From: a virus
DNA length: 41,786 nucleotides
Strand: one strand, 5' to 3'
Virus record (IMG/VR): IMGVR_UViG_3300022818_000088
Coordinates: 1 to 41,786 of that record
Position 1 is the first letter of the stretch; the number at the start of each line of letters is the position of its first letter. Made by a program: the position numbers and the translations under genes. Of this stretch, positions 92 through 41,786 are shown one piece after another. The notes below the pieces were generated by a model. That model was not told where the DNA came from and did not search any database. It saw only the letters and a list, made by a program, of their open reading frames with translations.

Positions 92-524
92 TGGCGGCGG
101 CATTGGTTCCGGTCTCTGCCGACCAGGCCGGAACATCGTCGGGAGTTGCTGGCGGATTAGCAATCAGGTATTTCATCTGTGCCTTATCATCCGCACTGAG
201 GTCTCTAATAGCGGAAGTGTCTGCCTCCATGAAATCCTTTTGCACCACACCAGCAAAGAATTCCCAATCATTAACCACTTCAGACGACCCTCCCCCACTG
301 CCGTCAACATTTGACCATCGCGCCGAAAGCGTATCCACGGCCATACCTTGTTTCACTGAGCATTTCGCCCCCGCCGCCACGCATTCGATATATTTCGCGG
401 TGATGGCCGCGCGCGTGCCCTGCCAGGTGCGAATAAGGTACGGGCCAGAATCATCCCAGCCGAATTCCTGGCCTTGCTCATGGGCTGCCGACGTGCCGGT
501 GATGGTTGGTGCTGGTGTGCTCAT
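1..524 (-). CDS. Distal tail protein-like gene, 5' part (spans the window ends)
   Basis: This is the N-terminal part of a 255-aa protein whose remainder is at 41452-41695. The start ATG at 524 overlaps the tape-measure stop (521-523) as ATGA, indicating translational coupling. The protein begins MSTPAPTITGTSAAHEQGQE and has no recognised domain. Its position directly after the tape measure is where siphophages encode distal tail or tail-tip proteins, so a tail role is inferred from synteny only. Joined across the circle the coding length is 768 nt, exactly 256 codons with the stop. It is soluble-looking, with no signal peptide or membrane segment. Confidence 0.75.
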   Translation of the reverse strand, partial: MSTPAPTITGTSAAHEQGQEFGWDDSGPYLIRTWQGTRAAITAKYIECVAAGAKCSVKQGMAVDTLSARWSNVDGSGGGSSEVVNDWEFFAGVVQKDFMEADTSAIRDLSADDKAQMKYLIANPPATPDDVPAWSAETGTNAAAIYALVQAGLRSIDVNAPTVRHTQTVSNSYA

Positions 525-1669
525 GGGAAATAAGTGTCGTAACCTTGATCCACTCCAAGTGCTCTCGGGTCGGTGTTGGAGGCAATCTTTTGCAACAGTG
601 TCACCTGTTGCTGTGCCAGGTTTTGCAGGACATCGCGAGAAGAGCCTAGGAAGTTGCCAACCCGCGTCAAGGCATCCCCGCCGCCGTCTTTGGCAATCTT
701 CACCTTCGGCGCTTTGGATTCGTCTTCAACATCGAATGTGGCCTTGGGTGGGTTCTTAAGACGGTTGGCCGCATTTGCCCAGAGCGCCTTCATGGCGTCA
801 ATCTGTTCCTTCTGAGGCTCGAATGCCTCAGCCATTGTATCGCCTATGTCCTTCAGAATATCGGAGTCCTTGAATGCTTTTTTAGCTCCTGCGAAATCCC
901 CGGAAGACAGATAGCCAAGCACGGTCCCTGCCGTGGCCGCTGTTGACCTTCCCGCCTCAACCCCGCCGGCGGCGAGAGTTGATAACGTCGCCCACATTTT
1001 CATTAGCGCCTCAACCACCTGTAGAATGATTGGCCCCAATTGAGTTGCCAGAATCTGGCCAAGAATAGAAAACTGGTCCCCAAGCACATCAAGCGCGGCG
1101 GCGGTCTCCGTGCTCATTATGGCCCCGAGTTTTTTCATCGTCCCGCCAAGGGATTCAAAGTCCGTTTGCAGCACGGGGATCAATTGCCCAAAGCCCTTTG
1201 CGAAAATCTCTTTCATCGGGGCAGCAAGATCGGCCTGATTCATTGACCTAACCGATTTGGAAATTGGGCCAGTGAATAAATCCTCTCGGTTAGTCTTCTC
1301 AAGTTGCGAGCGACTCACGCCGAGTTTAGCGAATGCTGCTAGAGCATCCTCAGAACCGGCCCCGCCCTTGAGTGCTTTATTGCGTGCCAGTTCTATTTTC
1401 TCAAAGCCTTTTACCATAGCTTCAAGGCTTGATCCTGCATCTTTGGCAGCCTGTTTGAAAACCTGTAGTTTCTCGACTCCAATCCCAAGACGTTGGCTTG
1501 CGTCAACCAATTCGCTGGCAGTCTCGAATGTTTTTCGCAAGGCCTGTTCGACTCCGTAAAATCCGAACGCGCTGGCAATGAAGCCCTTTACCGAGCCGGC
1601 CATGCGGGTGAGCCCGCGTTCGAATCCGCTTCCGTCAAGTGCAACTTCGCCTATGAGTTTAAGCCCCAT
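521..1669 (-). CDS. Tape measure-like tail protein (short)
   Basis: A 382-aa protein rich in Ala, Lys and helical stretches. The N-terminus (MAGSVKGFIASAFGFYGVEQ and the following ETASELVDASQRLGIGVEKL) matches the pattern typical of phage tape measure proteins, which set tail length and are threaded inside the tail tube. A hydrophobic helical stretch lies near residues 195-235. It follows the tube and chaperone-like genes, as expected. At 382 residues it is short for a siphovirus; by the usual scale of about 1.5 angstroms per residue the tail would be near 57 nm (inference). The start overlaps the end of the upstream gene by 11 nt. Confidence 0.7.
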   Translation of the reverse strand: MGLKLIGEVALDGSGFERGLTRMAGSVKGFIASAFGFYGVEQALRKTFETASELVDASQRLGIGVEKLQVFKQAAKDAGSSLEAMVKGFEKIELARNKALKGGAGSEDALAAFAKLGVSRSQLEKTNREDLFTGPISKSVRSMNQADLAAPMKEIFAKGFGQLIPVLQTDFESLGGTMKKLGAIMSTETAAALDVLGDQFSILGQILATQLGPIILQVVEALMKMWATLSTLAAGGVEAGRSTAATAGTVLGYLSSGDFAGAKKAFKDSDILKDIGDTMAEAFEPQKEQIDAMKALWANAANRLKNPPKATFDVEDESKAPKVKIAKDGGGDALTRVGNFLGSSRDVLQNLAQQQVTLLQKIASNTDPRALGVDQGYDTYFP

Positions 1670-5694: not shown

Positions 5695-7935
5695 TTATGT
5701 CTTGCCTACTTTCGGGTTGCTGCGCACCCAGACCGGCCCCAGGGTAAGCGCATTCGGATGCCTTTCCCGCACTGCCCGCATCACCGGCTCGTGCTGCGCG
5801 TCGTGTCCTGCCAGCCAACCATCCGGCTTTAGTTTCGGTTCCCAGGAAGCCAGGTCGCGCTTCACACTGTCGTAATCGTGGGCAGCATCCACAAAACAAA
5901 ATGCAAGCGAGTTGTCGGCCACACGACCGGCCATCTCCGCACTGTCCCCCTCGAGTACCTCAATCATATCCCCCACCCCGCACCGCTTCACGTTCGCCTC
6001 AAATGCCCCCCGGATACTTCCGCCGGCGGCAGCCACCGCGGTCACATGCGCGGGTTGATCCAACTCGCCCGTAAAACTGTCCACTGCATAAAGCTTCACC
6101 CGCTTGCCTTGAGCCTTAAGCATCTGGGCCAAGTGAATAATGCTGCGCCCGAACCAAACGCCAATCTCTGCCACCGTGTCCCCGTCCTTTAACGCGCCGG
6201 CCACGAATTCATAGAACTCCCAGAAGTTATAGAAGCCGGGGACGAAGGACCAGTCGTTTCCGGATTGCAGCCGGGTAAGGATAGCCTGCCCCTTGGCGTA
6301 TTGTTCCGGGGCATTCTGAGCCGTGTAGGTAGCGTCCAATTTCTTCCCGGTCTTGATAGGATGCTCGTGAGAAAACTTCAAGTCTCTCGCCTCAGTTACC
6401 ATGCCACGCTTGTAGGCTAACTCGGTAAACCAGTTGTCAGAGAAAACCCCTGTAAACTCAGGATGGAACAGGAAGTAATCAATTGCCCAATACGCCTTTG
6501 TGCAAATGGCCATGCACAACAGCGGATCGGTTCTGACCCCGTCGCTCACCGCCAAGACCTTGGGCTTTGTAACGTCGCCAATCCTTTCTAAGATGAGCTT
6601 ATCCCATTGCGGCATGGGCAGCCAATCGTCTGACAGTTGGACAATGACAGGAGCATCGGTTTTGAATGCGCCTTTGTTCCATGCGGCCACGCAACCGCCC
6701 CCGGTTGGAATGCAAAGGTGGTGCATTCTGCTCAGTGGTGCACTGGCCTTATCGTCTTGATCGAAAACAAAAACGTGTTCGATTTGGTCTGGCCTGTCGG
6801 CCATATCCAGCCAAATCTTTCTCGCCATTGCCGCTTGCTCATAACGCCCGCGTGTAGCGTGAATCAGGGAAATCTTTGGACCGCCCGCTTTCCTCATGCT
6901 TTCAATGCGCACCGACTCAGCCTCTTCCATCCGATTATTGGCTCGTAGGGCTTGGGCAAATATGTCTTCCCCGACCCACCCATAAACGGCCTCCCGACTG
7001 TTCCACGGTGTGAAGGAAGGCAACGGTGTCGCCCGCATTTGCCGGGCGTAGGCAAGGCCATCCTCGACTTGATTGGAATTCAGAGCATCATTGGCCAGCA
7101 GCAGCAGCGCCTCGCGCCGGGTCGGGTCGGCGGCGTAGGCAGCATGTAGCAGCGGCGTCTTTTGCTCCGGCTCGCTGGCGGTATGCTGCGCCAGGTTGAT
7201 GTAGATTTCGTACTTCTCAGGTCGCCCAATGTCTTTTGATCCCAACGCCTTTTTCGCCGCATTCACGCTTCCGGCAACGTCCTTTGCTAGCCCGAGTTCC
7301 TGGTGCAAGTGATACCACAGGCCGCAGGTCATTTCCTTTTCCGGGATGCTCCGCAGGATACGCAGGTTGCGCCCGTTGCTTTCCTGCTTCTTGAGATCGG
7401 GAAGGTGAGTCACCACCACACGATTGTCTTCGATTGCTTGGGGTGGTTTGATGTGGAAATCGAAACATTCATGCACCGGGAATAGCCACTTGCCGGAGCC
7501 GCGCAGTAGCATACGCTCGCGCGGAACCATGATGCCTTTGCCGAAAATGCGATAGGGAAACACGAAGGCAGCATATCCGCCCCGCTCCGCATGTTGTCGC
7601 ACGATCTCTGCACCACTTTCGAGTATGTCATCTGAATCGCACCAGAAACAATATTCGCCGTGGGCCAGATCAAAGCTTTTCTGCCGGGCGGAAGCGAAGC
7701 TGTCAATGTGCGGCCAGTCCTTATGGTAATTCAAGTATTCCCCTACAATGAGCGGCTTCCCATTTTCCTTGCACCACTTCTCTGCGATGGAAATGGTTTT
7801 GTCTGGCTTGTTCTTTCCAATCGCCCGGACCATCACTATCTCATCTCCGATTGCGGAAAAGGACTTGATACACCTTTCTATGTACTCTTCGACGTTTCCG
7901 ACAATCATGCACAGACTGATTTTTATCTCGCTCAT
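5695..7935 (-). CDS. Multidomain glycosyltransferase-glycosyltransferase-methyltransferase
   Basis: A 746-aa fusion. Residues 1 to about 220 form a GT2-like domain (SEIKISLCMIVGNVEEYIER; EYCFWCDSDDILESG with the DXD at about 100-102). Residues about 230-345 are helical and TPR-like (LLHAAYAADPTRREALLLLA). Residues about 355-540 form a second GT-like domain (KISLIHATRGRYEQAAMARK). Residues about 575-746 form a class I SAM methyltransferase of the Methyltransf_24 type (DTVAEIGVWFGRSI; SLAFCFVDAAHDYDSVK). The ATG at 7935 lies directly after a terminator-like stem and lacks an obvious Shine-Dalgarno; the extra 25 residues of the open frame above it cover that stem. It probably builds and methylates a short glycan on a virion or host surface component. 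Confidence 0.85.
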   Translation of the reverse strand: MSEIKISLCMIVGNVEEYIERCIKSFSAIGDEIVMVRAIGKNKPDKTISIAEKWCKENGKPLIVGEYLNYHKDWPHIDSFASARQKSFDLAHGEYCFWCDSDDILESGAEIVRQHAERGGYAAFVFPYRIFGKGIMVPRERMLLRGSGKWLFPVHECFDFHIKPPQAIEDNRVVVTHLPDLKKQESNGRNLRILRSIPEKEMTCGLWYHLHQELGLAKDVAGSVNAAKKALGSKDIGRPEKYEIYINLAQHTASEPEQKTPLLHAAYAADPTRREALLLLANDALNSNQVEDGLAYARQMRATPLPSFTPWNSREAVYGWVGEDIFAQALRANNRMEEAESVRIESMRKAGGPKISLIHATRGRYEQAAMARKIWLDMADRPDQIEHVFVFDQDDKASAPLSRMHHLCIPTGGGCVAAWNKGAFKTDAPVIVQLSDDWLPMPQWDKLILERIGDVTKPKVLAVSDGVRTDPLLCMAICTKAYWAIDYFLFHPEFTGVFSDNWFTELAYKRGMVTEARDLKFSHEHPIKTGKKLDATYTAQNAPEQYAKGQAILTRLQSGNDWSFVPGFYNFWEFYEFVAGALKDGDTVAEIGVWFGRSIIHLAQMLKAQGKRVKLYAVDSFTGELDQPAHVTAVAAAGGSIRGAFEANVKRCGVGDMIEVLEGDSAEMAGRVADNSLAFCFVDAAHDYDSVKRDLASWEPKLKPDGWLAGHDAQHEPVMRAVRERHPNALTLGPVWVRSNPKVGKT

Positions 7936-7971
7936 AAAACAAAAGGCTCGCCGCGATTGGAACGGCGAGCC
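7936..7971 (-). terminator. Intrinsic terminator-like hairpin upstream of the glycan cassette
   Basis: Perfect 9-bp arms (7945-7953 and 7963-7971) with a 9-nt loop. Read leftward, the stem is followed by TTTTGTTTT that ends at the ATG of the fusion glycosyltransferase. It would terminate or attenuate transcripts coming from the capsid genes, so the downstream cassette and tail genes must depend on read-through, antitermination or a local promoter. Confidence 0.75.
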
Positions 7972-8053
7972 ATACCCGGCCAAGTTAAAGAAAAGGGGCG
8001 GGCCAATCACTCCGCCCCATTGGTTAGATTGTGTTTATGGGAACACTTTGATT

Positions 8054-30917: not shown

Positions 30918-31174
30918 AAACACCAAGAACAACCGCAGATTGGTTGGATGATGATGTTGGTGAGGCTGCGGACGGCCTGTATTGCGCGGCGCTAATCATT
31001 ATGCGCAATCGGTACTCCATAGATCACGACATGTGGTCAAACCTAGAGAACGCCGCTATGCGCTACGACGCCAGACGGCAATCCGCCAGAAATGACGCGT
31101 TACTTGGGCGAGAGCCAAAGCATCCCGGCCAACCAGATTTGCGGCAGAGCGATGAACCGACTGCTTCGAGTTGA
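30914..31174 (+). CDS. MKTP-family small protein
   Basis: An 86-aa protein beginning MKTPRTTADWLDDDVGEAAD, N-terminally similar to its neighbour at 30672. ATGA coupled. Function unknown. Confidence 0.55.
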   Translation: MKTPRTTADWLDDDVGEAADGLYCAALIIMRNRYSIDHDMWSNLENAAMRYDARRQSARNDALLGREPKHPGQPDLRQSDEPTASS

Positions 31175-31188
31175 AACTAAAGGAAAAC

Positions 31189-31548
31189 ATGAAATTTAAT
31201 AAAACTCTGATATTGGTGGCTGTTGCCTACAACTTGTTAGGCACGGTCGGGTGTGAAAAGTGGCAGGCAAAACCTTCTTGGCCGAAATTGACTGAGCAGG
31301 GCATCACGAATACCTCCAACGATTTCAGCACTGCCTTCAACGATTTCAGAACTAATGTAATCCTCACTCAACCACCGCCGACATCATTACTGGAAATTAC
31401 ATCAACGGATAAACTTGTGATGTCTGTAGATTGTCCATTTTGGACTCTTGACGCATGTCCGGCCCCCACCAACGCAAATGATGTGGTGATTAAACTCACT
31501 ACTGCCGACGGTAAAAAGTGGATATGCAAATGGGAGGAAGCCAAGTGA
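31189..31548 (+). CDS. Early lipoprotein
   Basis: A 119-aa protein. MKFNKTLILVAVAYNLLGTV followed by GC is a signal sequence with a lipobox-like end (LGTVGC). The start at 31189 has AGGA 8 nt upstream. Mature part is Thr/Asp-rich with one Cys pair-like CPFW and CPAPT. A phage-made early lipoprotein could modify the cell surface or block superinfection (inference). Confidence 0.6.
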   Translation: MKFNKTLILVAVAYNLLGTVGCEKWQAKPSWPKLTEQGITNTSNDFSTAFNDFRTNVILTQPPPTSLLEITSTDKLVMSVDCPFWTLDACPAPTNANDVVIKLTTADGKKWICKWEEAK

Positions 31549-31570: not shown

Positions 31571-31801
31571 ATGAAGCTTCCACCCTGTGACCATGATGGA
31601 TGCGGTCCAATAGGCTGCCGGCGCAGTGGGGAATTCGGCGGCGTGTGGACCGCGACGGGAGAGCGCATAAGTGACGGGGTGAAGGTCATCGAGGCAACGC
31701 ATACCAACGGATACCCGTCCGATTTACCATGGTGGGAGTGGCAAACCATGCCGCCGTACATAAAGCCGTCCGGCCCACCAGAACCGGACGGACCACTATG
31801 A
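31571..31801 (+). CDS. CDHxGC-motif microprotein
   Basis: A 76-aa protein beginning MKLPPCDHDGCGPIGCRRSG. Paralogue of the N-terminus at 25859. The rest (FGGVWTATGERISDG; WWEWQTMPPYIKP) is Trp-rich. ATGA overlap with the PP-loop gene. Zinc-binding is likely, function unknown. Confidence 0.6.
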   Translation: MKLPPCDHDGCGPIGCRRSGEFGGVWTATGERISDGVKVIEATHTNGYPSDLPWWEWQTMPPYIKPSGPPEPDGPL

Positions 31802-32586
31802 ATGAAGTTGCCCTGTCGAACGTAATCTCATTCTCTGGTGGGGTGTGCAGTTTCTGGACTGCGGCTCGCGTGGTTGCACGTTACGGTAAGGAAAATGTGA
31901 CGTTGCTCTTTGCGGATACGAAGATGGAAGACGAGGACCTCTACCGATTCTGCCGGGACGCAACACAATACCTGGATGTGCCGCTGACAACCATCGCGGA
32001 CGGCAGGTCTCCGTGGCAGGTATTCGGCGACGAAGGCATGATGGGCAACAGCAAAGTGGACCTGTGCTCGCGCATCCTCAAACGCGAACTGTTAGACAAA
32101 TGGACTCGCGCGCACTGCCTAGAGATGACCAGCACGCTCTACGTCGGAATAGACTGGACTGAGGAACATCGGCTGACCCGCCTCCGATTGCGTAAGCACG
32201 GCTGGCGCATAGAAGCGCCCATGTGCGAGCCGCCGCTGTGGGACAAGTGCCGAATGCTCGCGGAACTGCGGGCAATCGGTATCGAGCCGCCCAGGCTCTA
32301 CAAGCTGGGATTCCCTCACAACAACTGCGGAGGATTTTGTATAAAGGCGGGGCAGGCGAACTTCGCGCACCTCCTGAGAGTGATGCCGGAACGGTATGCA
32401 TATCACGAGGCTCAGGAGGAAGCGATGCGTCTCCGGCTTGGCGACGTTTCCATAATGAAAGACCGGCGCAACAAGACTACGGCAACCCTGACAATGAAAC
32501 AACTCCGAGAACGCATCGAACGGGGAGAATCTTTTGACCGTTTTGAGTGGGGAGGTTGTGGATGCGCCATAGATTCTCCCGACTAA
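31798..32586 (+). CDS. PP-loop ATPase, PAPS reductase/adenylating family
   Basis: A 262-aa protein. VISFSGGVCSFWTA (about 9-22) is the PP-loop (SGG) motif that binds ATP to adenylate substrates. Conserved-looking cysteines at DLCSRIL (about 90), HNNCGGFCIKAG (Cys177, Cys181) and GGCGCA (254, 256) could hold an iron-sulfur cluster or carry sulfur. Relatives act in sulfate reduction, tRNA thiolation and DNA phosphorothioation; this one cannot be assigned. The ATG at 31798 overlaps the upstream stop; it closes the early operon before the convergent terminator. Confidence 0.8.
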   Translation: MNEVALSNVISFSGGVCSFWTAARVVARYGKENVTLLFADTKMEDEDLYRFCRDATQYLDVPLTTIADGRSPWQVFGDEGMMGNSKVDLCSRILKRELLDKWTRAHCLEMTSTLYVGIDWTEEHRLTRLRLRKHGWRIEAPMCEPPLWDKCRMLAELRAIGIEPPRLYKLGFPHNNCGGFCIKAGQANFAHLLRVMPERYAYHEAQEEAMRLRLGDVSIMKDRRNKTTATLTMKQLRERIERGESFDRFEWGGCGCAIDSPD

Positions 32587-32660: not shown

Positions 32661-32771
32661 TCAAGCAGGGGTGCCCTGAATGCAACTGACCAGGAACCAG
32701 GCAAGGAACAGCAGGAGGATGATCATCGCCGCCGTGCTCGCCAAGCTGGTTCTATCCCAAGGATTTCTCAC
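32661..32771 (-). CDS. 36-aa mini-lipoprotein, lysis-cassette end
   Basis: Found on the minus strand after the caspase-like gene: MRNPWDRTSLASTAAMIILL, then LFLAWFLVSC, ending CIQGTPA. A hydrophobic helix with an LVSC lipobox leaves a mature peptide of only 7 residues. The GTG start at 32769-32771 overlaps the caspase stop as GTGA. Size and form recall bacteriocin-release lipoproteins and Rz1-like outer spanins. Below usual gene-calling length. Confidence 0.55.
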   Translation of the reverse strand: MRNPWDRTSLASTAAMIILLLFLAWFLVSCIQGTPA

Positions 32772-33580
32772 GTAATTAAGTCGTCCACTATCGAGGCCCC
32801 GGCCCCCAGGACGTTAAGCACCGGATGCTGCGGAGCAAAGGTTTGGACCACCGCCGCAGTTTCCAAGAGCCAACTTTGACGGGTCAGCAGTTTTCCCTGA
32901 GCCTTCGCCTGCTGCCAGACTCCCAAGAGCGTCCCCATGAATACCCCGTTGTGCGGGCCGTCGCCGGCCGTCTCGTCTTTCGTGCACGCGCAGAGTTGCA
33001 GGATTGCGGCTTGGATGTCGCCAGACTTTTCACTGGTCGGCGGAGTGGCCACCACCCATTTCGGAGCGACCTTGGGCGTGAACCGCTGTCGGTCTCGACC
33101 CATGCCCTGGGAAAAGCAGGTATCTAGGACGTACATGACCTTGACGCCTTCCGGCCACCCGCACATGAGCGAGTGAAACTCCACGTCGGTTAAGGTGCCA
33201 TCTGCAAAGCACATGCTCTCGTTGTTTCCGTAGAACGGAGCCATGTATTGCGAGCCGTGGCCGCTGTTGCCGATCAAAAATTCATCACCGGGCTTTGCAG
33301 CCATCTGCAATTCAGAGTGCGCATTTCGCCAGGCCGCTCTGGTGCAGTCCAGGGTCATAACCCAAGGTGCCCCAGGTGCCGGCGGCCCACCGACGTTCCA
33401 CCCGCTGAATATCGCCCTCGAGTCGTAGCCCATGTTGCTCGCGCACTGGGCCAGACCGCGGGCGTCAGGGATGCAGCCAGCGAGAAGGCCGGACCAGCCG
33501 CCGGCTGGGTTGGCGTCGGGGTTGTATTCGGGTGCGAACTGGTCAACCGCGTTCTGCCCGAACGTCACGCAAGCCCTCAC
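32768..33580 (-). CDS. Caspase/metacaspase-fold cysteine protease
   Basis: A 270-aa protein. The GTG at 33580 overlaps the upstream stop as GTGA; the longer frame from 33670 lies inside the neighbour. Metacaspase p20 features occur in order: LLAGCIPDARGLAQCASNMG (about 32-51), then FLIGNSGHGSQ with catalytic His108, then VMYVLDTCFSQGM with catalytic Cys155, and later ACTKDETAGDGP and FMGTLL (about 198-219), matching the strand-helix end of the fold. Metacaspases usually cleave after Arg/Lys. No signal peptide. It sits last but one in the lysis-like cassette; function in lysis, host killing or protease interference is inferred. Confidence 0.85.
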   Translation of the reverse strand: MRACVTFGQNAVDQFAPEYNPDANPAGGWSGLLAGCIPDARGLAQCASNMGYDSRAIFSGWNVGGPPAPGAPWVMTLDCTRAAWRNAHSELQMAAKPGDEFLIGNSGHGSQYMAPFYGNNESMCFADGTLTDVEFHSLMCGWPEGVKVMYVLDTCFSQGMGRDRQRFTPKVAPKWVVATPPTSEKSGDIQAAILQLCACTKDETAGDGPHNGVFMGTLLGVWQQAKAQGKLLTRQSWLLETAAVVQTFAPQHPVLNVLGAGASIVDDLIT

Positions 33581-33903
33581 TTGTGCACCCCCGGTAGAAC
33601 CGCACCATGCGCCAGAGCCAGCACCAGGGCATTGCGCCTGGCGTCTGTGGCCACGGAGTCGTAAACCCATAGCATTGGGCCTCCCGTGGCACCCGACGCT
33701 GCCAGGGCGCTGGAAACGTCAGCAGGCGGCATCGCCTTGAACTCAATGGTTACGCCGGCAGTGATTTCCCCGGTGGCGGGAGTGTAACCACCAGTAGCGG
33801 ATATGCTTTGGACTGACTTGCAACCCGTTGTGCACGAAACCAGTGCCGCCGCCGGGATAACCAGGGCAACGATTACTGGCAATATGAAGAGTAGTCTTTT
33901 CAT
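33577..33903 (-). CDS. Lysis-cassette lipoprotein B
   Basis: A 108-aa protein. MKRLLFILPVIVALVIPAAA followed by LVSC is a type II signal; a second Cys pair (TTGC) follows. The mature part is 80 residues of Gly/Ala/Thr. ATGA overlap upstream and GTGA overlap with the caspase-like gene. Could be an outer-membrane spanin-type component or a surface protein. Confidence 0.65.
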   Translation of the reverse strand: MKRLLFILPVIVALVIPAAALVSCTTGCKSVQSISATGGYTPATGEITAGVTIEFKAMPPADVSSALAASGATGGPMLWVYDSVATDARRNALVLALAHGAVLPGVHK

Positions 33904-34268
33904 GGCTTTAGCTTGGGAATGACGGCAGAACCCGTCGCGTTGGTGCCGACCATCACGTCACCAGAAAACACGCTCTCTTGAGCGTCGGTGGAAATGGGGT
34001 CATAGGCGTTCTGCTTGCCGGCGTAGGCCGAGCCAAACCGCGGCGCGTAGATAGGGCCGTTGGTTGAGGTCGGTATCATGGTGATGGTTTCCCGCACGAC
34101 ACCCAATTTCACGTCAGGCAGGATGGTTCCACTGACTGGGGAGGTGGTTGTCAGCTTGATGCCGACAATCCACGAGGTTTGGCTGATGATCTTGTTCGAG
34201 TTGAGGGCCGTCTGGCAGCCGCACAACATGAGGACTGCCGCCAGAGCCGCTATGGTTTTGTTTTTCAT
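33900..34268 (-). CDS. Lysis-cassette lipoprotein A
   Basis: A 122-aa protein starting MKNKTIAALAAVLMLCGCQT, with an LCGC lipobox at about 15-18. I chose the ATG at 34268, because it directly precedes the signal and lies 8 nt after the previous stop; a longer frame to 34316 would overlap. Mature part is Ser/Thr/Pro-rich. Outer-membrane location expected. Function unknown. Confidence 0.7.
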   Translation of the reverse strand: MKNKTIAALAAVLMLCGCQTALNSNKIISQTSWIVGIKLTTTSPVSGTILPDVKLGVVRETITMIPTSTNGPIYAPRFGSAYAGKQNAYDPISTDAQESVFSGDVMVGTNATGSAVIPKLKP

Positions 34269-34275
34269 AAATAGT

Positions 34276-34539
34276 TCAGTGAATGAAGCAGTTTGAGAAC
34301 ATGGTCGCGACCGCATTCCAGGATACCACTACCCCATGGCCAGTCGAGTCGAACGGTTTAGCTTTTGGCCACACGCTCACTTCGCAGGCGTCCCCGGGAG
34401 AATCTGTCACGAGAGCCTCGACCATCGCGGACGGCCCGCTGATGAGGAAGTTTGGAGCGAAGGCCAGGAGTTGACCTTGCTTGCCGTCATAGGGAGTTAC
34501 CCCCGTTTTTTTCACCCGTAGTGTGATTTGCTTTGTCAT
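34276..34539 (-). CDS. Small beta-rich protein, unknown
   Basis: An 87-aa protein beginning MTKQITLRVKKTGVTPYDGK, with a strand-rich pattern (AFAPNFLISGPSAMVEALVT) and a C-terminal Cys-His (SNCFIH). No signal peptide. Located between holin-like and lipoprotein genes. Confidence 0.55.
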   Translation of the reverse strand: MTKQITLRVKKTGVTPYDGKQGQLLAFAPNFLISGPSAMVEALVTDSPGDACEVSVWPKAKPFDSTGHGVVVSWNAVATMFSNCFIH

Positions 34540-34550
34540 GCGTTTTCTTT

Positions 34551-34883
34551 CTATTGGCCTGGTTTTATTTCGGCTGGCGGTGCGGCCGGGACCGTTGCCG
34601 GTTCGTTCTTCGTCTGTACCGTAACCGTTTCACTGCGTAAAGTCGAGCCCTCTCCGCTTGTTTTCATCTCGATCTTGTAATCGCTAAAGGACTGCGACAG
34701 GAACGCGAGCATCTGGGTTGCCGCGCCGACAAAACAGCCCGCGCCAATCACCACCCAATTGACAAGCGGGGGCCAGTGCCCAGAGTCCATCCACTGGCCG
34801 AGGCCGGTAGCCAACGGAGCCATGCCGCCGATCACCGTGAAGCATACGCCCTTCGTGATGATTATTGCCGTCTCGATTTTCAC
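34551..34883 (-). CDS. Holin-like membrane protein
   Basis: A 110-aa protein with two hydrophobic segments (IIITKGVCFTVIGGMAPLAT, about 7-26; PLVNWVVIGAGCFVGAATQM, about 39-58) and a soluble charged tail (NEPATVPAAPPAEIKPGQ). Two-helix proteins of this size are typical class II holins, which permeabilise the inner membrane. Its position in the cassette supports this, but no family match is certain. Confidence 0.6.
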   Translation of the reverse strand: MKIETAIIITKGVCFTVIGGMAPLATGLGQWMDSGHWPPLVNWVVIGAGCFVGAATQMLAFLSQSFSDYKIEMKTSGEGSTLRSETVTVQTKNEPATVPAAPPAEIKPGQ

Positions 34884-35080
34884 AGTTTAGGCACGTTCTT
34901 GAGGTAGTCCCTCAGTTCCGCTCGCAGTTCATACCATGCAGAACACTTTTCGGCAGGTCTCCGCCAATCTTCTGATGCCAGTGCTACCATGTCCAGAGCG
35001 CCAAGGCATCGTCTAAGCAGCCTTTCTTCGAGCGTTGTCACGCGCTTGTATCTCAACCATCGTTGAATGAAGCCCATCAT
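34880..35080 (-). CDS. Small basic helical protein, lysis region
   Basis: A 66-aa protein starting at an ATG (35080) that overlaps the upstream stop as ATGA. Basic helical segments (FIQRWLRYKRVTTLEERLLR) precede an acidic end (LRAELRDYLKNVPKL). Unknown; perhaps an antiholin or cassette accessory. Confidence 0.5.
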   Translation of the reverse strand: MMGFIQRWLRYKRVTTLEERLLRRCLGALDMVALASEDWRRPAEKCSAWYELRAELRDYLKNVPKL

Positions 35081-35511
35081 GTGCCAGTTTTGAAAAGGTG
35101 CCATACCAGAAGTCCAGTTTCAAGCGTCAATATACCAATCCCGATACTGATTAGGATATTCAACGCCCCGCGCGACCCTTCCAATACTGACATGCGCTGA
35201 TCTCTAGTTTTACCGTTGTCTTTCACTTCCTCGATTGACTTTTCAATGGAAACAATTCCAAGCTCAATCCTGATGATGGTTTCATGGTCAGTGCCGGTCT
35301 TTTCATCCACCACTTTGGCGCTTACTGCAGCGGCGGCGGACACAACCCTGGCGGCGTCGGCGGCTGCCGCAGTCAAGACCCTGACGGCATCCGCAGCCGA
35401 TTGGACGATTACTTTGGACGCGCTATCTGCCGCGTTGGAGATTACCCTTAGCCCTTCGTCGGCGGCATCTTTCAAGTCGTCTCGATCTTTAGTGGTTCTG
35501 TTTGGTGCCAT
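35077..35511 (-). CDS. XhlA-like coiled-coil membrane protein
   Basis: A 144-aa protein. Residues about 15-75 are an Ala/Val-rich heptad-like coiled coil with repeated AADA/AAA units (SAADAVRVLTAAAADAARVV). After KSIEEVKDNGKTRDQRMSVL comes the C-terminal hydrophobic helix (ALNILISIGIGILTLETGLL), ending in a short basic tail. This is the hemolysin XhlA/holin-accessory architecture. First gene of the lysis-like cassette. Confidence 0.6.
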   Translation of the reverse strand: MAPNRTTKDRDDLKDAADEGLRVISNAADSASKVIVQSAADAVRVLTAAAADAARVVSAAAAVSAKVVDEKTGTDHETIIRIELGIVSIEKSIEEVKDNGKTRDQRMSVLEGSRGALNILISIGIGILTLETGLLVWHLFKTGT

Positions 35512-35541: not shown

Positions 35542-36948
35542 TCACGGTCGCCAGTTAATGAGTTGCAACGGTCCCCCGTTTGTAGGCGCGAAGGTTTTCC
35601 CAAACTGATAGTCATTGATCTGACCAAAAAGAAACGACACCGTATTGGACTTGATCTGTTCAGGGTCGGGATTCAGCGCCCAGTTGGGTGAATATGTGTT
35701 GCTGAGATAGAACTTTGTCCATGTCTCAAAGTTGTCACTCGACTTGTAGCAGACGATGCCGGGCATTTCTCCAGGGAAATTGTTGGGCAGCACTACGTAA
35801 CTGGTGCCATTAACTGAAACAATAGATGGGTAAGGATACGGATTCAGATTGTTGATGCTGCGGTCGTTCGATGAAATGGCGAAGTTGGCAGTCCATGCGA
35901 ATCGGTTAAGCGTGAGTTGATGCTCAGTTACGCTATTCCCGGTTGAGTTTTCCATGACAAATAGGTTCCACTGGTTACCAAGGCGAGTATAGGCAACCTG
36001 TGCCACCCCATTGGAAGTCAAACAGAAATCACATTGTACGTTGAAATCTCGACCTGAAAGCGCAGGAGTTACATTCCCAATGTTGAGTGGATAACTGAGC
36101 AAGGAACCATCGAAATTGTAGATGTTTCCATCAGTGGCGAACTTGAATAAATACTGATTTGTCCCAATAGTTTTGAGAGACAACGACCACCATAGGTTTC
36201 CCGACGAATCGAACTTCGGAAGCCCGTTCAAGTACTGTGAGGACGTTGGTGTATTTAATCCATTCCAAACAACACAGGTGGCATCCACCCACTTCGACGG
36301 CTGAGCCCAGGCAGTAGTGGTCGTGTTGTATTGATACATTATCTGATCCGATGTGCCAGAATCCCCCTTCCGAAAGGTTAAATATAGTTCCCCTGCATTG
36401 TCTTTGAACAAGAACGGATAAGTGGACCTGGTTTCTATTAAAGAACTCACCAAGGGGTAGATTAGTCCCGTCCAGTTGGTGACCTCGTATGGAAACGAAG
36501 TGCGAATGTAAAGGAGGTTGGTGGCGTGTGCCCCATAGAAGCAATGACCGAAACCAGTCTTGTCGAACTCAAGTGACGCGATCTTGTGCTCATCATCGTT
36601 GTTGTTGTACGGAAGCTGGAGAAGATAAAGGAGGTTGGTGGTCGTTGTGATCGTGGTTATACCACTAGATAAGTCCTTATCCGTGAAGCAAAGGTGCAAG
36701 TTGGTATTGTAGTAAACCCCGTATTGATGAGTTCCTGCGGTACAAAGCTGGTTCTTGGCGATGCTGATTCCATTCAAGCCGCTCGCCGTATAGGCGTTTA
36801 GGATGGCGGGATTTGTGTCAGCCAACCATAGCAGCGACGGCGGATTAGTCGTAGTTCCACCGACTCCAGACAATGAACCTAAACCGCTAAGGGTCTGGCC
36901 TAGGCAGGAGACGGCCAGGAATAGATAGATAATCGGCATTAATTTCAT
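35542..36948 (-). CDS. Secreted BNR_4-type beta-propeller (sialidase/lyase-like)
   Basis: A 468-aa protein. MKLMPIIYLFLAVSCLGQTL is a Sec signal with a possible lipobox (AVSC). The rest matches BNR_4: DEHKIASLEFDKTGFGHCFY, STYPFLFKDNAGELYLTFRK with GDSGTSDQIMYQYN, then LPKFDSSGNLWWSLSLK. The family includes polysaccharide-lyase-like propellers and sialidase-fold proteins. No catalytic residues can be assigned by eye. ATGA overlap with the YadA-like gene. A virion depolymerase or a secreted glycan-binding protein are both possible. Confidence 0.75.
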   Translation of the reverse strand: MKLMPIIYLFLAVSCLGQTLSGLGSLSGVGGTTTNPPSLLWLADTNPAILNAYTASGLNGISIAKNQLCTAGTHQYGVYYNTNLHLCFTDKDLSSGITTITTTTNLLYLLQLPYNNNDDEHKIASLEFDKTGFGHCFYGAHATNLLYIRTSFPYEVTNWTGLIYPLVSSLIETRSTYPFLFKDNAGELYLTFRKGDSGTSDQIMYQYNTTTTAWAQPSKWVDATCVVWNGLNTPTSSQYLNGLPKFDSSGNLWWSLSLKTIGTNQYLFKFATDGNIYNFDGSLLSYPLNIGNVTPALSGRDFNVQCDFCLTSNGVAQVAYTRLGNQWNLFVMENSTGNSVTEHQLTLNRFAWTANFAISSNDRSINNLNPYPYPSIVSVNGTSYVVLPNNFPGEMPGIVCYKSSDNFETWTKFYLSNTYSPNWALNPDPEQIKSNTVSFLFGQINDYQFGKTFAPTNGGPLQLINWRP

Positions 36949-39419
36949 GGGGCTAGTTTTACCGCTGTGTTGCTTGCCGATCCATCTGCGGTGTAACTGT
37001 AGTAAAGGAACGTATTGGAAACCCAGGTTGCGCCATTCCCTGCTCCAATCTGCGCTGGTGTAGGGGCCGACGGTTGGTTCGTCATGATCACTGCACTGGC
37101 CCGGATTGATATATTGGCGCTGTCGTTACCGTTCCTAAACGATACCGTTGGCGAATTGGTCGGGTTCTCAACCTTGATGTATGGCCAGTCTTCTGTCGTC
37201 TTTCCTAGAAATAGTCCCAATGCTCCGCTTAAATCACTCAATAACAGTTGCAACGTACCATTGGTCGGGCTGAACAGTTGAGATTTAGCCTGCCAATAAT
37301 ACGGCGCCCCACCAGCAACGCGGATACCAGATCCGCCTGACGCATAGACATTTGCACATCCAAAGTTGCCATTGTTGTCCCCATACATAGGATACAACGT
37401 TCCGGTGGCGAATGCGGAATTGGAAACCGAACCCACAAGTTGTAGCTGCCACGCTGGATTAGCTGAAGTTCCCTGTTGCGGAACCAGCACCCATCCCGCC
37501 CCTATCGGCATCGAGGTTGAATTACCACTCCTGAACCCCTGACCGTACTGAGCAATGAACGGACTATACTGCTGCCCATTTAAGACTGCTGGCTGTCCAT
37601 TCGATGAAACAAACGACGGCACAAACGTAGCACCCAGTCCGTCCACCTGTAATTGTTCGTCCTGACCATACACTTTATGGAAGTAATTGGACGATCCAGT
37701 GGCAGAGACGTTTCCCAACACCGCCAGGTTAGTGGATACGACAAGATTAGTTCCTGTGCCAGTGAGATTCAGTTGAGGAGTACTCACTGGATTGCTGAAG
37801 GTGTTTGTGCCGGTGAAGGCATTCGTGCCGTTCAACAGAGCCACATTCCCCGACAACCTCGCATCCGGCACCGTGCCGCTCGCCAGCGCCGAGGCGGAGA
37901 GGCTTGCGACCAGTGTGCCCGGAACATTCACCGTTCCCGATGCAGTGCCCAGCATCACCTGGTTGGTGTCGGTTGTGGCCGAGTTATGACCAATGGCCGT
38001 CGAGTTTGGGTGAGAAGCCGTTGCGGAAAGACCCAGCGCTATACTATTAGATTCGCCTGCGTATGTGTAACCTCCAAGGGCCAAAGAGCCATACCCACTC
38101 GCAGTTCCACGGCCAAGCGCTATAGAATACTTTGCTGTTGCAAAAGTTAAGCGCCCCAGTCCTACAGATTCCTCACCCGTTGCCTTCGCGCCAGTCCCAA
38201 TCGCTAATGACGAAAACCCGGAAGCGGTACTGGAATAGCCGAGCGCTATAGAATCATTCGAACTAGCATGGGCATAAGCACCACCAGCAAACGTATATTT
38301 ATCTGACGCTATAGCATCTCGACCAATGGCCGTGCCTTCGTAACCAGCGGCTACAGCTCCAGAACCAAAGACCGCGCCTCCCACACCAACGGATGCATTA
38401 GCGCCAAAAACAGTGGCATTTGTTGCATCATTCAAAAAGGTTGCGCCGGCACCAAATTTCTCGCTGTTCGTTCCAACCCCAGGAGAAGAGAAAACGCCGC
38501 TGAACCCGGTGTCCTCTTTCATTACGGCTTTCGCGGTCGCCGGGTTCGTGCCTGTGTAAATCTGACCGGGTGTGCCATTGGTGGTGAAGATGCTGAGACT
38601 TTTTGCCGATAAATTACCAACAGCATCGGCCATGACATTCCCATCATGATAGTAATGATTCCCATCCTGGTCGACGAAGAGGCCACCCGAATGGTATTCA
38701 AGATTGCCGAGGGCATCGGCAAAGACATTCCCGTCACCGAAATACCACCGCCCGTCTATATCCGCAAGGGGCTCTCCGTTGGGGTAGTACAGAGTAGCGA
38801 CACCGGCCAAATTACTGCCATTGCCGTACCGATACAGGTTTGCGGTGACATTGCTGAGCGTTGCCGATCCCCCGTTCGTCACTCCGCCAACCGCGGCCAC
38901 GTCCACCGCGGTCAGTACCGCTGCCGCATTCGTCCGGCCCTGGAAACTCACCATACCACCTGCACCTCCATCAATGTAAGTCACCGCGCCGGCGGTGTGA
39001 AAGGTCATGTTGCTCCCCGCTTTCAGAGACCATGTCGAGTAGGCCGGGACGCTCGATCCCGCGCAGATAAATGCCGGTCGCACCAGGTTAGTCGCATTCA
39101 CCAGGCCGGTGTCGGTCTCGGCAATTGAAAACCAGTTCGTCGTTGTGGTGTACGTTCCCCGGAATTCCCCACGGTAATCACCCCACACGAGATTTGACAC
39201 CGTCACGCTGCCATTTGTCCCGATTGCGCGATAGAGCCGGTCGCGGGTTGTCAGGCCCAGAGGATTAACGGCCCGAATGCACTCAGGATAAAGAAAGAAG
39301 TCCCGCCCGCCCTGGGGCGCCAGGGCGGAGTTGTAGAAATCAAACTGCACATTCACCGCCGCGCGAGCGGGCGAGAGCATGGCCAGACCAAAACAGAGCA
39401 GCAGAATTATGCGGTTCAT
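36945..39419 (-). CDS. YadA-head-like fibre/adhesin with signal peptide
   Basis: An 824-aa protein. MNRIILLLCFGLAMLSPARA is an AxA-type signal peptide. Residues about 60-200 are strand-rich and Asn/Thr-rich. Residues about 221-270 hold two copies of DGxxYF/YYxDGNVxADAxGNL. Residues about 330-500 hold YadA-head (Hep_Hag) repeats of the form SxALGxxxxAxGxxS (SIALGYSSTASGFSSLAIGT; SVGLGRLTFATAKYSIALGR). The C-terminus contains LLLSDLSGALGLFLG and Trp-rich strands. Trimeric beta-roll fibres use this module for adhesion. The signal peptide is highly unusual for a phage tail fibre. Confidence 0.75.
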   Translation of the reverse strand: MNRIILLLCFGLAMLSPARAAVNVQFDFYNSALAPQGGRDFFLYPECIRAVNPLGLTTRDRLYRAIGTNGSVTVSNLVWGDYRGEFRGTYTTTTNWFSIAETDTGLVNATNLVRPAFICAGSSVPAYSTWSLKAGSNMTFHTAGAVTYIDGGAGGMVSFQGRTNAAAVLTAVDVAAVGGVTNGGSATLSNVTANLYRYGNGSNLAGVATLYYPNGEPLADIDGRWYFGDGNVFADALGNLEYHSGGLFVDQDGNHYYHDGNVMADAVGNLSAKSLSIFTTNGTPGQIYTGTNPATAKAVMKEDTGFSGVFSSPGVGTNSEKFGAGATFLNDATNATVFGANASVGVGGAVFGSGAVAAGYEGTAIGRDAIASDKYTFAGGAYAHASSNDSIALGYSSTASGFSSLAIGTGAKATGEESVGLGRLTFATAKYSIALGRGTASGYGSLALGGYTYAGESNSIALGLSATASHPNSTAIGHNSATTDTNQVMLGTASGTVNVPGTLVASLSASALASGTVPDARLSGNVALLNGTNAFTGTNTFSNPVSTPQLNLTGTGTNLVVSTNLAVLGNVSATGSSNYFHKVYGQDEQLQVDGLGATFVPSFVSSNGQPAVLNGQQYSPFIAQYGQGFRSGNSTSMPIGAGWVLVPQQGTSANPAWQLQLVGSVSNSAFATGTLYPMYGDNNGNFGCANVYASGGSGIRVAGGAPYYWQAKSQLFSPTNGTLQLLLSDLSGALGLFLGKTTEDWPYIKVENPTNSPTVSFRNGNDSANISIRASAVIMTNQPSAPTPAQIGAGNGATWVSNTFLYYSYTADGSASNTAVKLAP

Positions 39420-39449
39420 ACGATTCAGAAAGTGGGGTGCGTCAACAGG

Positions 39450-40178
39450 TTAGTGGTTTGTCCAGACGGGAGACCAGCCCATCGCGCTACCATCCGCGCT
39501 GTACACCTGCGCCCAAAAGCTCGGCGCGGTTACGCCGATGGTAACTCCGGTCGGCGCGGAGTTCGTCGGGAATCGGTAGGCAGCGGCCGCCAGCACACCC
39601 CACGCGTCAAAGGTTAGGCCGCCCGATGCCAGGAGTGCAGAACCGTCCAGGTAGAAATTGTTCCGCCCCTCATTCATGTGGGTTTCCCGCATGGTCACAT
39701 TGCCCACGGTATCCGCCTGGAATCCCCCGCCGGCGAAATAAATCGAACCGTCGGCATTCAGCCTTGCTGCCCCACTCGATGCGCTGACAGAGCCAGCCGT
39801 GTCAATCTGGTTCGTGAGTGTGGCGGGCATCGCGGTGATTCCAGAACCGAAAAGGAACTGGGCGAAGAGGCCAAACAGGTTGGTATTGAGGGTATTCGTG
39901 CTGACGTATTCCGCAATGAGCCGCAAGTTGTGGTTTGCCGCCTGCCACGCCATCCAGGTGTTGACCCCGTGGGCATAGTTCGTGCCCCTGGCCCAGTTGA
40001 CGTAGTTGGTCCCGCCATCCCACCAGGCCGGCAGGTTGGTGCGCGAGTAATCAGTCGAGTTTGTGGGGTTGACGGCCCAGGGGATAGTCACCAGATTCGA
40101 CAAGTTTCCGCTTAGGTTAGTTTGCGCCCGTGCCGTAAGGCCGCAGAGCAAAGCTGCAATGATGATAAGTGTTCGCAT
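39450..40178 (-). CDS. Secreted protein related to the YadA-like neighbour
   Basis: A 242-aa protein. MRTLIIIAALLCGLTARAQT is a clear Sec signal (ARA cleavage site). Asn/Thr-rich body (TNPTNSTDYSRTNLPAWWDG region). It contains DGSIYFAGGGFQADTVGNVT, the same motif as in the 824-aa neighbour (DGxxYFxxGxxxADxxGN). Likely a paralogous partner fibre or secreted protein. The 31-nt gap to the next gene shows no terminator. Confidence 0.65.
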   Translation of the reverse strand: MRTLIIIAALLCGLTARAQTNLSGNLSNLVTIPWAVNPTNSTDYSRTNLPAWWDGGTNYVNWARGTNYAHGVNTWMAWQAANHNLRLIAEYVSTNTLNTNLFGLFAQFLFGSGITAMPATLTNQIDTAGSVSASSGAARLNADGSIYFAGGGFQADTVGNVTMRETHMNEGRNNFYLDGSALLASGGLTFDAWGVLAAAAYRFPTNSAPTGVTIGVTAPSFWAQVYSADGSAMGWSPVWTNH

Positions 40179-40182
40179 AAAA

Positions 40183-40896
40183 TTAAGCTGTTGATAATGG
40201 AAGATCGTCAGTTGAAAGTCCTTCGTTGCCGGAACTTAGTGTCTCCGGTGGCGGGAAGTCTGAAAGAACCTTTCCCGGCCAAAATATGCAAACGCTACAA
40301 CCTTCGATGCTGGCGTCTGCCTCTGGCGCAATTAGTTCTAGAGACGAGCCGGGCGCAATCGTGACAAGAGATGCGCTGTCCGGTGGAGTGATTAATAAAC
40401 GAGAATCCCCCGGCACTACGATGCCATTGAGATAGCCCGCATCAAGCGGCCATGACCTTGTGTGGTAGTATGCCAACACACCGGAAAGCGGGCAGTACAC
40501 CTTTGCCTTTATGCCCATTCCCATACTGTAAAATCGTCCGTCCATCACGTATTCCGCAGGAGCACCCCACGACCATACCTTTGGATTCGCCGGAATACCA
40601 TCGCACCACGGAACGGAACTTGTAATCTTCCCTCCTGAAATGGTAAGCGTACCAGTGTCTCTGGTTGGCCCGTAACTGGGATTTATTTCAAAGGAATCCC
40701 CCGCGTAATAGCCAGGCAATATTCCAGTTGGATAACTGAACCCGTTCAAGTCTGGGGCACCATGTGGCCACGTCGGCCCAGAATAATTGTCAATCACCTG
40801 CACGTACAAAAGAGAACCGCCACCAGCGCCGCGCTGCCAGTCTGGCGCTCTTACCTGTTGCCAGTCCTGCCCCCTTGTGAGCTTGTAGGCTGGCAT
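40183..40896 (-). CDS. Tail-region protein, unknown
   Basis: A 237-aa protein beginning MPAYKLTRGQDWQQVRAPDW. Pro/Gly/Ser/Trp-rich with strand-like segments (GSSLELIAPEADASIEGCSV). Located between tail-tip-like genes and the signal-peptide fibre proteins. No signal peptide. Function not recognised. Confidence 0.6.
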   Translation of the reverse strand: MPAYKLTRGQDWQQVRAPDWQRGAGGGSLLYVQVIDNYSGPTWPHGAPDLNGFSYPTGILPGYYAGDSFEINPSYGPTRDTGTLTISGGKITSSVPWCDGIPANPKVWSWGAPAEYVMDGRFYSMGMGIKAKVYCPLSGVLAYYHTRSWPLDAGYLNGIVVPGDSRLLITPPDSASLVTIAPGSSLELIAPEADASIEGCSVCIFWPGKVLSDFPPPETLSSGNEGLSTDDLPLSTA

Positions 40897-40897
40897 G

Positions 40898-41452
40898 TTA
40901 CGCGGACGCCCATTGCCGCCCCGTTAGAGCAATCAGAGTTAACGAAACGTCATCAACCTTGACACCGGTATTAGAGCATGGCCAGACAGGAACGATGTCA
41001 GTATCTAAGAACGGCGGCGAAATGTATTCGGTGAGAACCGTTGTGCCCTTGGTTGAAGTCCTTTGCTGCGGGTCGGTATCAATATCGTCGGTGTAGTCGG
41101 TGAAGAACCATTCATCCCCATTGGGCATGATCTGACTGACGATGCCTGATTGTAGGTGCGGCTCCACGGCCACATTCACGTCGCCAGACCCGTCTTCTGC
41201 CGCGCCTGCTGGCCTGCAAACCAGATAATCTCCGTTGGCTGCGTCCTGATTGTAGGACACCACCAGCATAAACCTTACCCCCCCGCCGCCAGCCGCCGCT
41301 GGCTGTATCTCAAGTATGGTCCCCGCGCTGGTGCATTTGAGCTTGTAACCAACCCCGGGCAACACCCTGTTGGCATTCACCGCCGAAAGCAAACGCCGTA
41401 ACCAATTCGCTTGGCGACTATCTCCGGAAGGTGGATTCGGGGCATCGTTCAT
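40898..41452 (-). CDS. Tail-region protein, unknown
   Basis: A 184-aa protein. The ATG at 41452 overlaps the upstream stop (ATGA); the longer frame to 41503 lies in the neighbour. It begins MNDAPNPPSGDSRQANWLRR, has a Gly-rich turn (PAAAGGGGVRFMLVVSYNQD) and a strand-rich C-terminal half. Probably structural by position; no domain recognised. Confidence 0.6.
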   Translation of the reverse strand: MNDAPNPPSGDSRQANWLRRLLSAVNANRVLPGVGYKLKCTSAGTILEIQPAAAGGGGVRFMLVVSYNQDAANGDYLVCRPAGAAEDGSGDVNVAVEPHLQSGIVSQIMPNGDEWFFTDYTDDIDTDPQQRTSTKGTTVLTEYISPPFLDTDIVPVWPCSNTGVKVDDVSLTLIALTGRQWASA

Positions 41453-41786
41453 CAGTACTTCGCTTGGTACAGGAGCGGGCAAGGCCAGAGTCCATAAGTC
41501 CATTCTTGCACGATCTGCGTCTTTTGTCGCGCCGATAGGCGGATAGTCGGGTGCATTTTAAACCAGCCATAGATCAAGTTGGCCTTGGATGAAATGTCTG
41601 TTGGAAGGTTGAATAGCAAGTCCCCAGGCATCGCCTCATCTGAGATTAACTGGCCAGACGTGAAGATTCTCCCCACGTTTGTCAGTGAGGCTTTGATGGC
41701 GTAGGAATTGGAAACGGTTTGAGTGTGTCGCACGGTCGGGGCATTCACATCAATCGAACGCAAGCCCGCTTGCACTAATGCGTAAA
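41452..41786 (-). CDS. Distal tail protein-like gene, 3' part (spans the window ends)
   Basis: C-terminal continuation of the gene at 1-524. Bases 41696-41786 duplicate 1-91, so the non-redundant end of this part is 41695. It encodes the last 81 codons (including the stop), beginning near KASLTNVGRIFTSGQLISDE and ending LLYQAKY. Function as described for the 1-524 part. Confidence 0.75.
   Translation of the reverse strand, partial: YALVQAGLRSIDVNAPTVRHTQTVSNSYAIKASLTNVGRIFTSGQLISDEAMPGDLLFNLPTDISSKANLIYGWFKMHPTIRLSARQKTQIVQEWTYGLWPCPLLYQAKY
41696..41786. repeat. Terminal direct repeat, right copy
   Basis: Identical to bases 1-91; redundant sequence of a circularised assembly. Delete one copy to obtain the 41,695-bp circle. 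Confidence 0.95.

Follow-up and report, generated by a model that had tools for sequence, protein, structure and literature searches.

We analysed the entire virus record IMGVR_UViG_3300022818_000088 (41,786 bases; hereafter the window), which carries a 91-bp direct terminal repeat. Given this repeat and an open reading frame (ORF) spanning the junction, the genome is very likely closed, which places the tape measure gene upstream of the fibre region. The minus strand encodes the portal, prohead protease, capsid and tape measure proteins, and the order through the junction is tape measure, the end-spanning gene, the genes for a 201-aa and a 237-aa protein, three consecutive genes for proteins of 242, 824 and 468 aa (hereafter the trio), and then membrane and lipoprotein-like genes. 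The trio thus lies inside the tail module, past the tape measure. The features discussed here are:

521..1669, minus strand: tape measure protein (best match to the PHROG tail tape measure families 1.1e-12)
34551..34883, minus strand: 110-aa membrane protein, putative holin candidate
35077..35511, minus strand: 144-aa protein directly downstream of the trio, coiled-coil-like with a C-terminal hydrophobic segment (read from the sequence)
35542..36948, minus strand: 468-aa protein with ATG start, lipoprotein-type signal peptide and BNR_4 propeller (Pfam, PDB, residue mapping)
36945..39419, minus strand: 824-aa protein with ATG start, Sec signal peptide and YadA-head repeats (Pfam, one relative in a verrucomicrobial genome)
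39450..40178, minus strand: 242-aa protein with ATG start and Sec signal peptide (signal-peptide rule, AT-rich leader)
40183..40896, minus strand: 237-aa tail-region protein without signal peptide, directly upstream of the trio (no Pfam or PHROG family)
40898..41503, minus strand: 201-aa tail-region protein without signal peptide (weak PHROG virion structural match, E=0.037)

The portal and capsid proteins share 27% and 21% identity, respectively, with those of Verrucomicrobia phage P8625, and the nearest terminases among genome contigs belong mostly to Verrucomicrobiota. The record is, judging from these comparisons, a distant relative of Verrucomicrobiota phages, and this kinship together with the terminases makes a verrucomicrobial host likely.

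Signal peptides ending in AxA or AVSC had been proposed in a preliminary description for all three trio proteins. Using a home-made rule rather than SignalP, which requires a charged n-region, a 9-residue hydrophobic core and an AXA or lipobox end, we recovered a signal peptide at the first start codon of every trio ORF, and export is predicted accordingly for all three. In each ORF the n-region is charged, the hydrophobic core is long and the end is either AXA or a lipobox: the N-terminus of the 468-aa protein reads MKLMPIIYLFLAVSC before LGQ, with the lipobox AVSC, that of the 824-aa protein MNRIILLLCFGLAMLSPARA before AVN, and that of the 242-aa protein MRTLIIIAALLCGLTARA before QTN. The strict version of the rule accepted none of 112 internal-Met windows from the window's own genes of at least 200 aa, and none of 116 N-termini of genes of at least 200 aa from P8625, Moulinsart and five viral relatives, a set in which a few genes in 2-kb overlaps are possibly counted twice. 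With regard to translation starts, the ATG of the 468-aa gene overlaps the stop of the 824-aa gene, that of the 242-aa gene lies 4 nt past where the 237-aa gene stops, and the 242-aa gene shares its AT-rich leader with the major capsid gene; no clear Shine-Dalgarno sequence was seen at the genes of this window. The 824-aa ORF contains a single in-frame ATG (M14), located within the hydrophobic stretch. A later start conserved in relatives, which would have spoken against export, was looked for and not seen, as M14 has no counterpart in the nearest relative of this protein (locus L195, described below), where no start codon follows M5 within the signal region.

The 468-aa protein matches Pfam BNR_4 (2.5e-20) and, in PDB, 5mum (2.6e-11) and 7esl (3.3e-6), its solved relatives being GH145 and PL42 enzymes. 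In its anterior site, the PL42 L-rhamnose-alpha-1,4-D-glucuronate lyase FoRham1 uses His85 as base/acid, with His105 as its neighbour and Arg166 as neutraliser, along with Tyr150, Ser170 and Tyr202 (PMC8377490). All six residues, with roles as assigned there, are retained in the 468-aa protein (His85/H121, His105/H141, Arg166/R193, Tyr150/Y177, Ser170/S197 and Tyr202/Y239). The posterior catalytic His48 of the GH145 alpha-L-rhamnosidases, by contrast, corresponds to Ala71. The protein is thus a propeller of the GH145/PL42 type and, since the GH145 histidine is missing and all six PL42 residues that we checked are present, our best guess is a putative rhamnose-glucuronate (Rha-GlcA) lyase-like enzyme. 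Unlike FoRham1 and the GH145 enzyme BT3686, with which it shares the BNR_4 propeller and, in the PL42 case, the six residues, it is phage-encoded and bears a lipoprotein-type signal in addition to lacking His48.

The 824-aa protein consists of the signal peptide, an N-domain (~21-150), YadA-head repeats (~330-505; PF05658, 2.7e-18; PDB 1p9h, 1.8e-8) and a distal part without a family. It has head repeats in common with the trimeric autotransporter adhesins of the YadA type but is missing their C-terminal membrane anchor, and no other Pfam domain was found in it at E 0.1. Against PHROG, only families of unknown function matched, over the middle and repeat region, with no curated tail-fibre family. 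Thus, Pfam bore out the YadA-head-like protein and the BNR_4 propeller of the preliminary description, and these domains, combined with the predicted signal peptides, support the secreted adhesin or glycan-active make-up that it had suggested.

When 286 genomes of one class were searched with a profile, four had matches. Besides the profile's own source, the clear match was in a verrucomicrobial genome (G079:C88, locus L195), namely a 1,180-aa protein that is 52% identical to the 824-aa protein over the first 160 aa. The identities are distributed unevenly (7/21 in the signal part, 73/128 in the mature part); retention of the predicted signal peptide while its sequence drifts is the usual drift of signal peptides. 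The gene order at L195 resembles that of the window (glycosyltransferase, two head-tail-like genes, tape measure), and a second signal-peptide gene, of 135 aa, lies upstream of the tape measure and near the larger signal-peptide fibre (L195:8157-8564). In another verrucomicrobial prophage, a 142-aa signal-peptide protein is encoded in the structural module, also near a larger signal-peptide fibre (L198:15585-16013). The fourth profile match (G110, E 0.007, 60-aa frame) was dropped, and the matches in G536 and G441 look like host secreted proteins. In IMG/VR, we found no relatives of the whole 824-aa protein and none of the N-domain pair from the window and L195; among cultured phages, 11 records matched, with the match limited to the YadA-repeat region. 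The structural model of the N-domain is weak (pLDDT 54.6) and had no PDB or BFVD match at E 0.001 or better, and for these reasons we do not claim it as a tail-docking domain. A positional counterpart is P8625 gp22, a protein with YadA-like head repeats encoded past the tape measure in a phage with related portal and capsid genes. Unlike the syntenic 824-aa protein, gp22 has no signal peptide, and export is thus not a fixed trait of YadA-like fibres.

The 242-aa protein has no Pfam or PHROG family and no relative among cultured phages, and the matches in 11 of 236 class genomes (E 8.5e-4 to 0.024) were not convincing. Its AlphaFold model (pLDDT 35) is unusable.

We then examined how such genes are distributed among verrucomicrobial prophages. 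A terminase survey gave a match in 71 of 384 genomes; 40 prophage regions were fetched and, with five left out as too short, 35 were scanned, only two of which (L268 and L269) contained a fibre-like signal-peptide gene. L268 (genome G264) has three consecutive signal-peptide genes past the tail genes. The same trio, with signal peptides on all three proteins, occurs in genome G173 (L288), further downstream of L269, where additional signal-peptide genes lie between the capsid and head-tail genes. Between L268 and L288, the mature parts evolve under purifying selection (dN/dS about 0.12-0.17), and the fibre gene has 8/16 identities in the signal part and 285/319 in the mature part. Two other prophages encode large signal-peptide proteins between capsid and head-tail genes: an 840 aa protein with a BNR_2 propeller in G026, and in G193 a 675 aa protein with a GDSL esterase domain, accompanied by a 142-aa signal-peptide gene. 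Homology of the window N-domain to these two proteins is weak, the profile having included the signal peptide and been built on two rows that differ greatly; by sequence, they have the same architecture as the 824-aa protein and nothing beyond that is claimed. The cultured verrucomicrobial phages P8625 and Moulinsart have fibres without signal peptide.

Enrichment was assessed for genes of at least 200 aa on the same strand within 10 kb downstream of TerL, excluding loci with less than 5 kb downstream. Signal-peptide genes were detected in 8/42 verrucomicrobial loci vs 4/57 others. On reading, L090 and L175 proved to be one prophage, and L246 (a membrane protein), L253 (a tape measure), L257 and L262 were doubtful, leaving 3/41; the four control positives were two tape-measure-like proteins and two cases of an exported-looking 424-aa protein. 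Enrichment in Verrucomicrobiota is therefore not shown by this TerL-downstream survey. The related 424-aa signal-peptide proteins, from Jhaorihella (L114:9411-10748) and Tabrizicola (L155:17408-18682), are encoded ~6 kb downstream of terminase-like genes.

At its C-terminus, the protein of the first L268 trio gene carries a phrog_11393 tail-fibre domain (3.2e-15). A search for this family in 236 class genomes returned two matches: the G173 gene and, in the verrucomicrobial genome G133, a gene that encodes a 603-aa protein with a signal peptide and the phage fibre-tip domain, with no recognisable prophage around it (L307:10712-12523). In three cultured phages with this tip, a signal peptide is present in Burkholderia phage BcepC6B gp19 and Xanthomonas phage PBR31 orf35 and absent from the Enterobacter phage Mulvp2 protein. 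The genes for gp19 and orf35 each have a fibre or tailspike gene immediately upstream and the holin gene downstream; the two proteins combine, like the first protein of the L268/L288 trio, a signal peptide with the fibre tip domain, and we saw no homology between them and the three proteins of the window. The paper on PBR31 describes an SGNH esterase with a signal peptide that may help lysis; none of the passages retrieved from it dealt with orf35 (PMC10975493).

Scanning IMG/VR for relatives of the phrog_11393 tip yielded at least 435, of which the best 80 were examined. A signal peptide is clear in 37 of these, weak in 4 and absent from 37, while 2 run off the contig; 13 of the 80 have an N-terminus that duplicates another in the set. 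The signal-bearing and signal-less proteins differ in their N-modules, so that one tip occurs behind two kinds of N-terminus. We also scanned for the N-module AQFxPGQxLTAxxLN (in short, GQxLTAxxLN). A signal peptide precedes it in 57/58 loci (43 distinct), a count that is biased, as the pre-cleavage alanine was included in one of the two patterns and the signal peptide in the query; the remaining locus has the hydrophobic stretch and no start codon accepted by the script. Tandem copies were observed at L317, L338 and L357. When neighbouring genes were looked up, 7 of 10 proteins had a tailspike or tail-fibre, baseplate hub or virion structural match, one of the seven being itself a signal-bearing copy.

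Cultured members of the N-module group (Bcep1-51, Bcep781-49 and BgManors32 gp48) all have the signal peptide, and the GenBank records of the first two carry the note ‘possible signal peptide domain’. In Bcep1 and Bcep781, both virulent phages with contractile tails, the gene with the signal peptide lies in the tail/baseplate cluster and is annotated as the tail fibre; Bcep781 is reportedly the subject of a paper by Summer et al. from 2006. These tail-region fibre genes with a Sec signal peptide resemble the window trio, but they belong to Burkholderia phages, are unrelated in sequence and have no role assigned in the records. Indeed, the trio belongs to the wider class by architecture and not by homology, as its proteins are, on the profiles searched, not phrog_11393 members. 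Thus, the earlier characterization of signal peptides at this position as highly unusual stands for verrucomicrobial prophages, a minority of which have them, and fails for phages at large, given that they recur in many other phages including cultured ones; L268 and L288, in turn, carry a second trio. No published account of exported tail fibres was listed in our searches of an open-licence collection that misses most subscription journals; beyond the two GenBank notes, these searches gave no functional account.

The reading that we prefer, plausible but held tentatively, is that the trio encodes late-expressed, Sec-exported fibre-type proteins that act outside the cytoplasm on surface glycans and perhaps limit superinfection or re-adsorption. 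Each would be built from a signal peptide, a fibre module and a distal part that binds or cleaves glycans, such as the YadA-head repeats or the PL42-type lyase propeller. The proteins would cross the inner membrane into the periplasm and arrive at the outside of the infected cell no later than lysis, where they would bind or trim those glycans that the phage's own fibres use. The result would be a layer that destroys or masks the receptor, with less superinfection and with progeny kept off debris. This interpretation is favoured by the tail/lysis location, the signal kept in L195, the shared tip domain and the intact PL42 residues; moreover, distal parts across the set are glycan-active or adhesive (PL42-type lyase, BNR_2 propeller, GDSL esterase, YadA head). 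Because another fibre or tailspike gene is close by in BcepC6B (gp18), PBR31 (gp34) and BgManors32 (gp50, the one of the three that was checked, and signal-less), the exported protein looks like an extra binding protein, for which receptor masking or removal against superinfection and re-adsorption would be the simplest function. Late or prophage-encoded small exported lipoproteins, such as T5 Llp and Cor, mediate phage superinfection exclusion. The trio proteins would likewise be exported and act on the receptor side, but they are large and of the fibre type.

The main rival, serious even if we consider it rather unlikely, is that these are true virion fibres routed through Sec, which would complete folding and trimerisation in the periplasm and attach to tails once lysis brings the periplasmic and cytoplasmic contents together. 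Fibreless particles are able to take up fibres in vitro, and no second long fibre gene was seen in the window or in the Bcep1 and Bcep781 regions looked at, which is what makes docking after export a serious rival. Two points that count against our preferred reading also count for this one: the 824-aa protein occupies the place past the tape measure where a virion fibre is expected and where P8625 has its signal-less YadA-like fibre, and the window and L195 proteins agree in the N-domain while their distal parts have diverged, a pattern typical of virion-attached fibres. The tail fibre annotation of the Bcep1 and Bcep781 genes points in the same direction. Conversely, the separate fibre or tailspike gene beside the signal-bearing one in BcepC6B, PBR31 and BgManors32 argues against it, as does the lipoprotein-like 468-aa protein, which would be membrane-tethered.

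It is improbable, in our view, that the genes are lysogenic-conversion cargo, that is, host-derived secreted adhesins and glycan enzymes in the late region that serve the host cell rather than the infection. The fibre-like, secreted-looking G133 protein with the same tip domain outside a recognisable prophage, the insertion-like placement of the signal-peptide genes between capsid and head-tail genes in G026, G193 and G173, and the profile matches to plain host secreted proteins would fit such an origin; however, the genes sit in the late structural or lysis block, not in separate units, and the virulent Bcep1 and Bcep781 carry them as well. Quite improbable, too, is that the hydrophobic N-termini are tail-tip or membrane anchors instead of export signals, or are bypassed by a later start codon. 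M14 of the 824-aa ORF would permit a bypass, but the L195 signal region has no later start, the N-termini show AXA or lipobox ends, positive n-regions and rapid drift with hydrophobicity retained, and the signal peptide precedes one N-module in nearly every locus even if that count is biased by query and pattern.

A broader proposal, possible but more speculative, is a two-address system shared by phages of at least two bacterial phyla, in which one distal tip is attached in some proteins to an N-module for docking on the virion and in others to a Sec signal peptide with its own N-module. The exported copies would coat or strip the receptor on cell and debris, and would constitute an unnamed general class of decoys for superinfection exclusion and progeny release. 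The comparisons made here suggest that certain phages export surplus copies of the tips with which they bind. Tail-fibre genes are usually read as virion parts and used to predict or engineer host range; if a large share were exported, as the signal-bearing fraction of the best 80 tip relatives would imply, many proteins annotated as receptor-binding may never end up on the virion, and phages would be predicted to have a widespread way to mask or destroy their own receptor. Export is directly testable in cultured phages carrying such genes.

Several other genes of the window are worth recording. The 144-aa protein next to the trio is a putative lysis-region candidate. At the end of the late region, a caspase-like C14 peptidase (32768-33670, minus strand; Pfam 3.6e-12) overlaps a lipoprotein-like ORF in a different frame (33577-33903), and the gene at 33900-34316 (minus strand) encodes a protein that is lipoprotein-like when read from an internal start (MKNKTIAALAAVLMLCGCQT) and weakly matches the Cor superinfection exclusion protein (phrog_1119, E=0.012). 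The early plus-strand block includes a small lipoprotein-like gene (31171-31548; MKFNKTLILVAVAYNLLGTVGC). A 771-aa ORF (5695-8010, minus strand) combines two glycosyltransferase-like parts with a DNA-methyltransferase-like part, and a PAPS reductase-like gene (31729-32586, plus strand) is likewise annotated in P8625.
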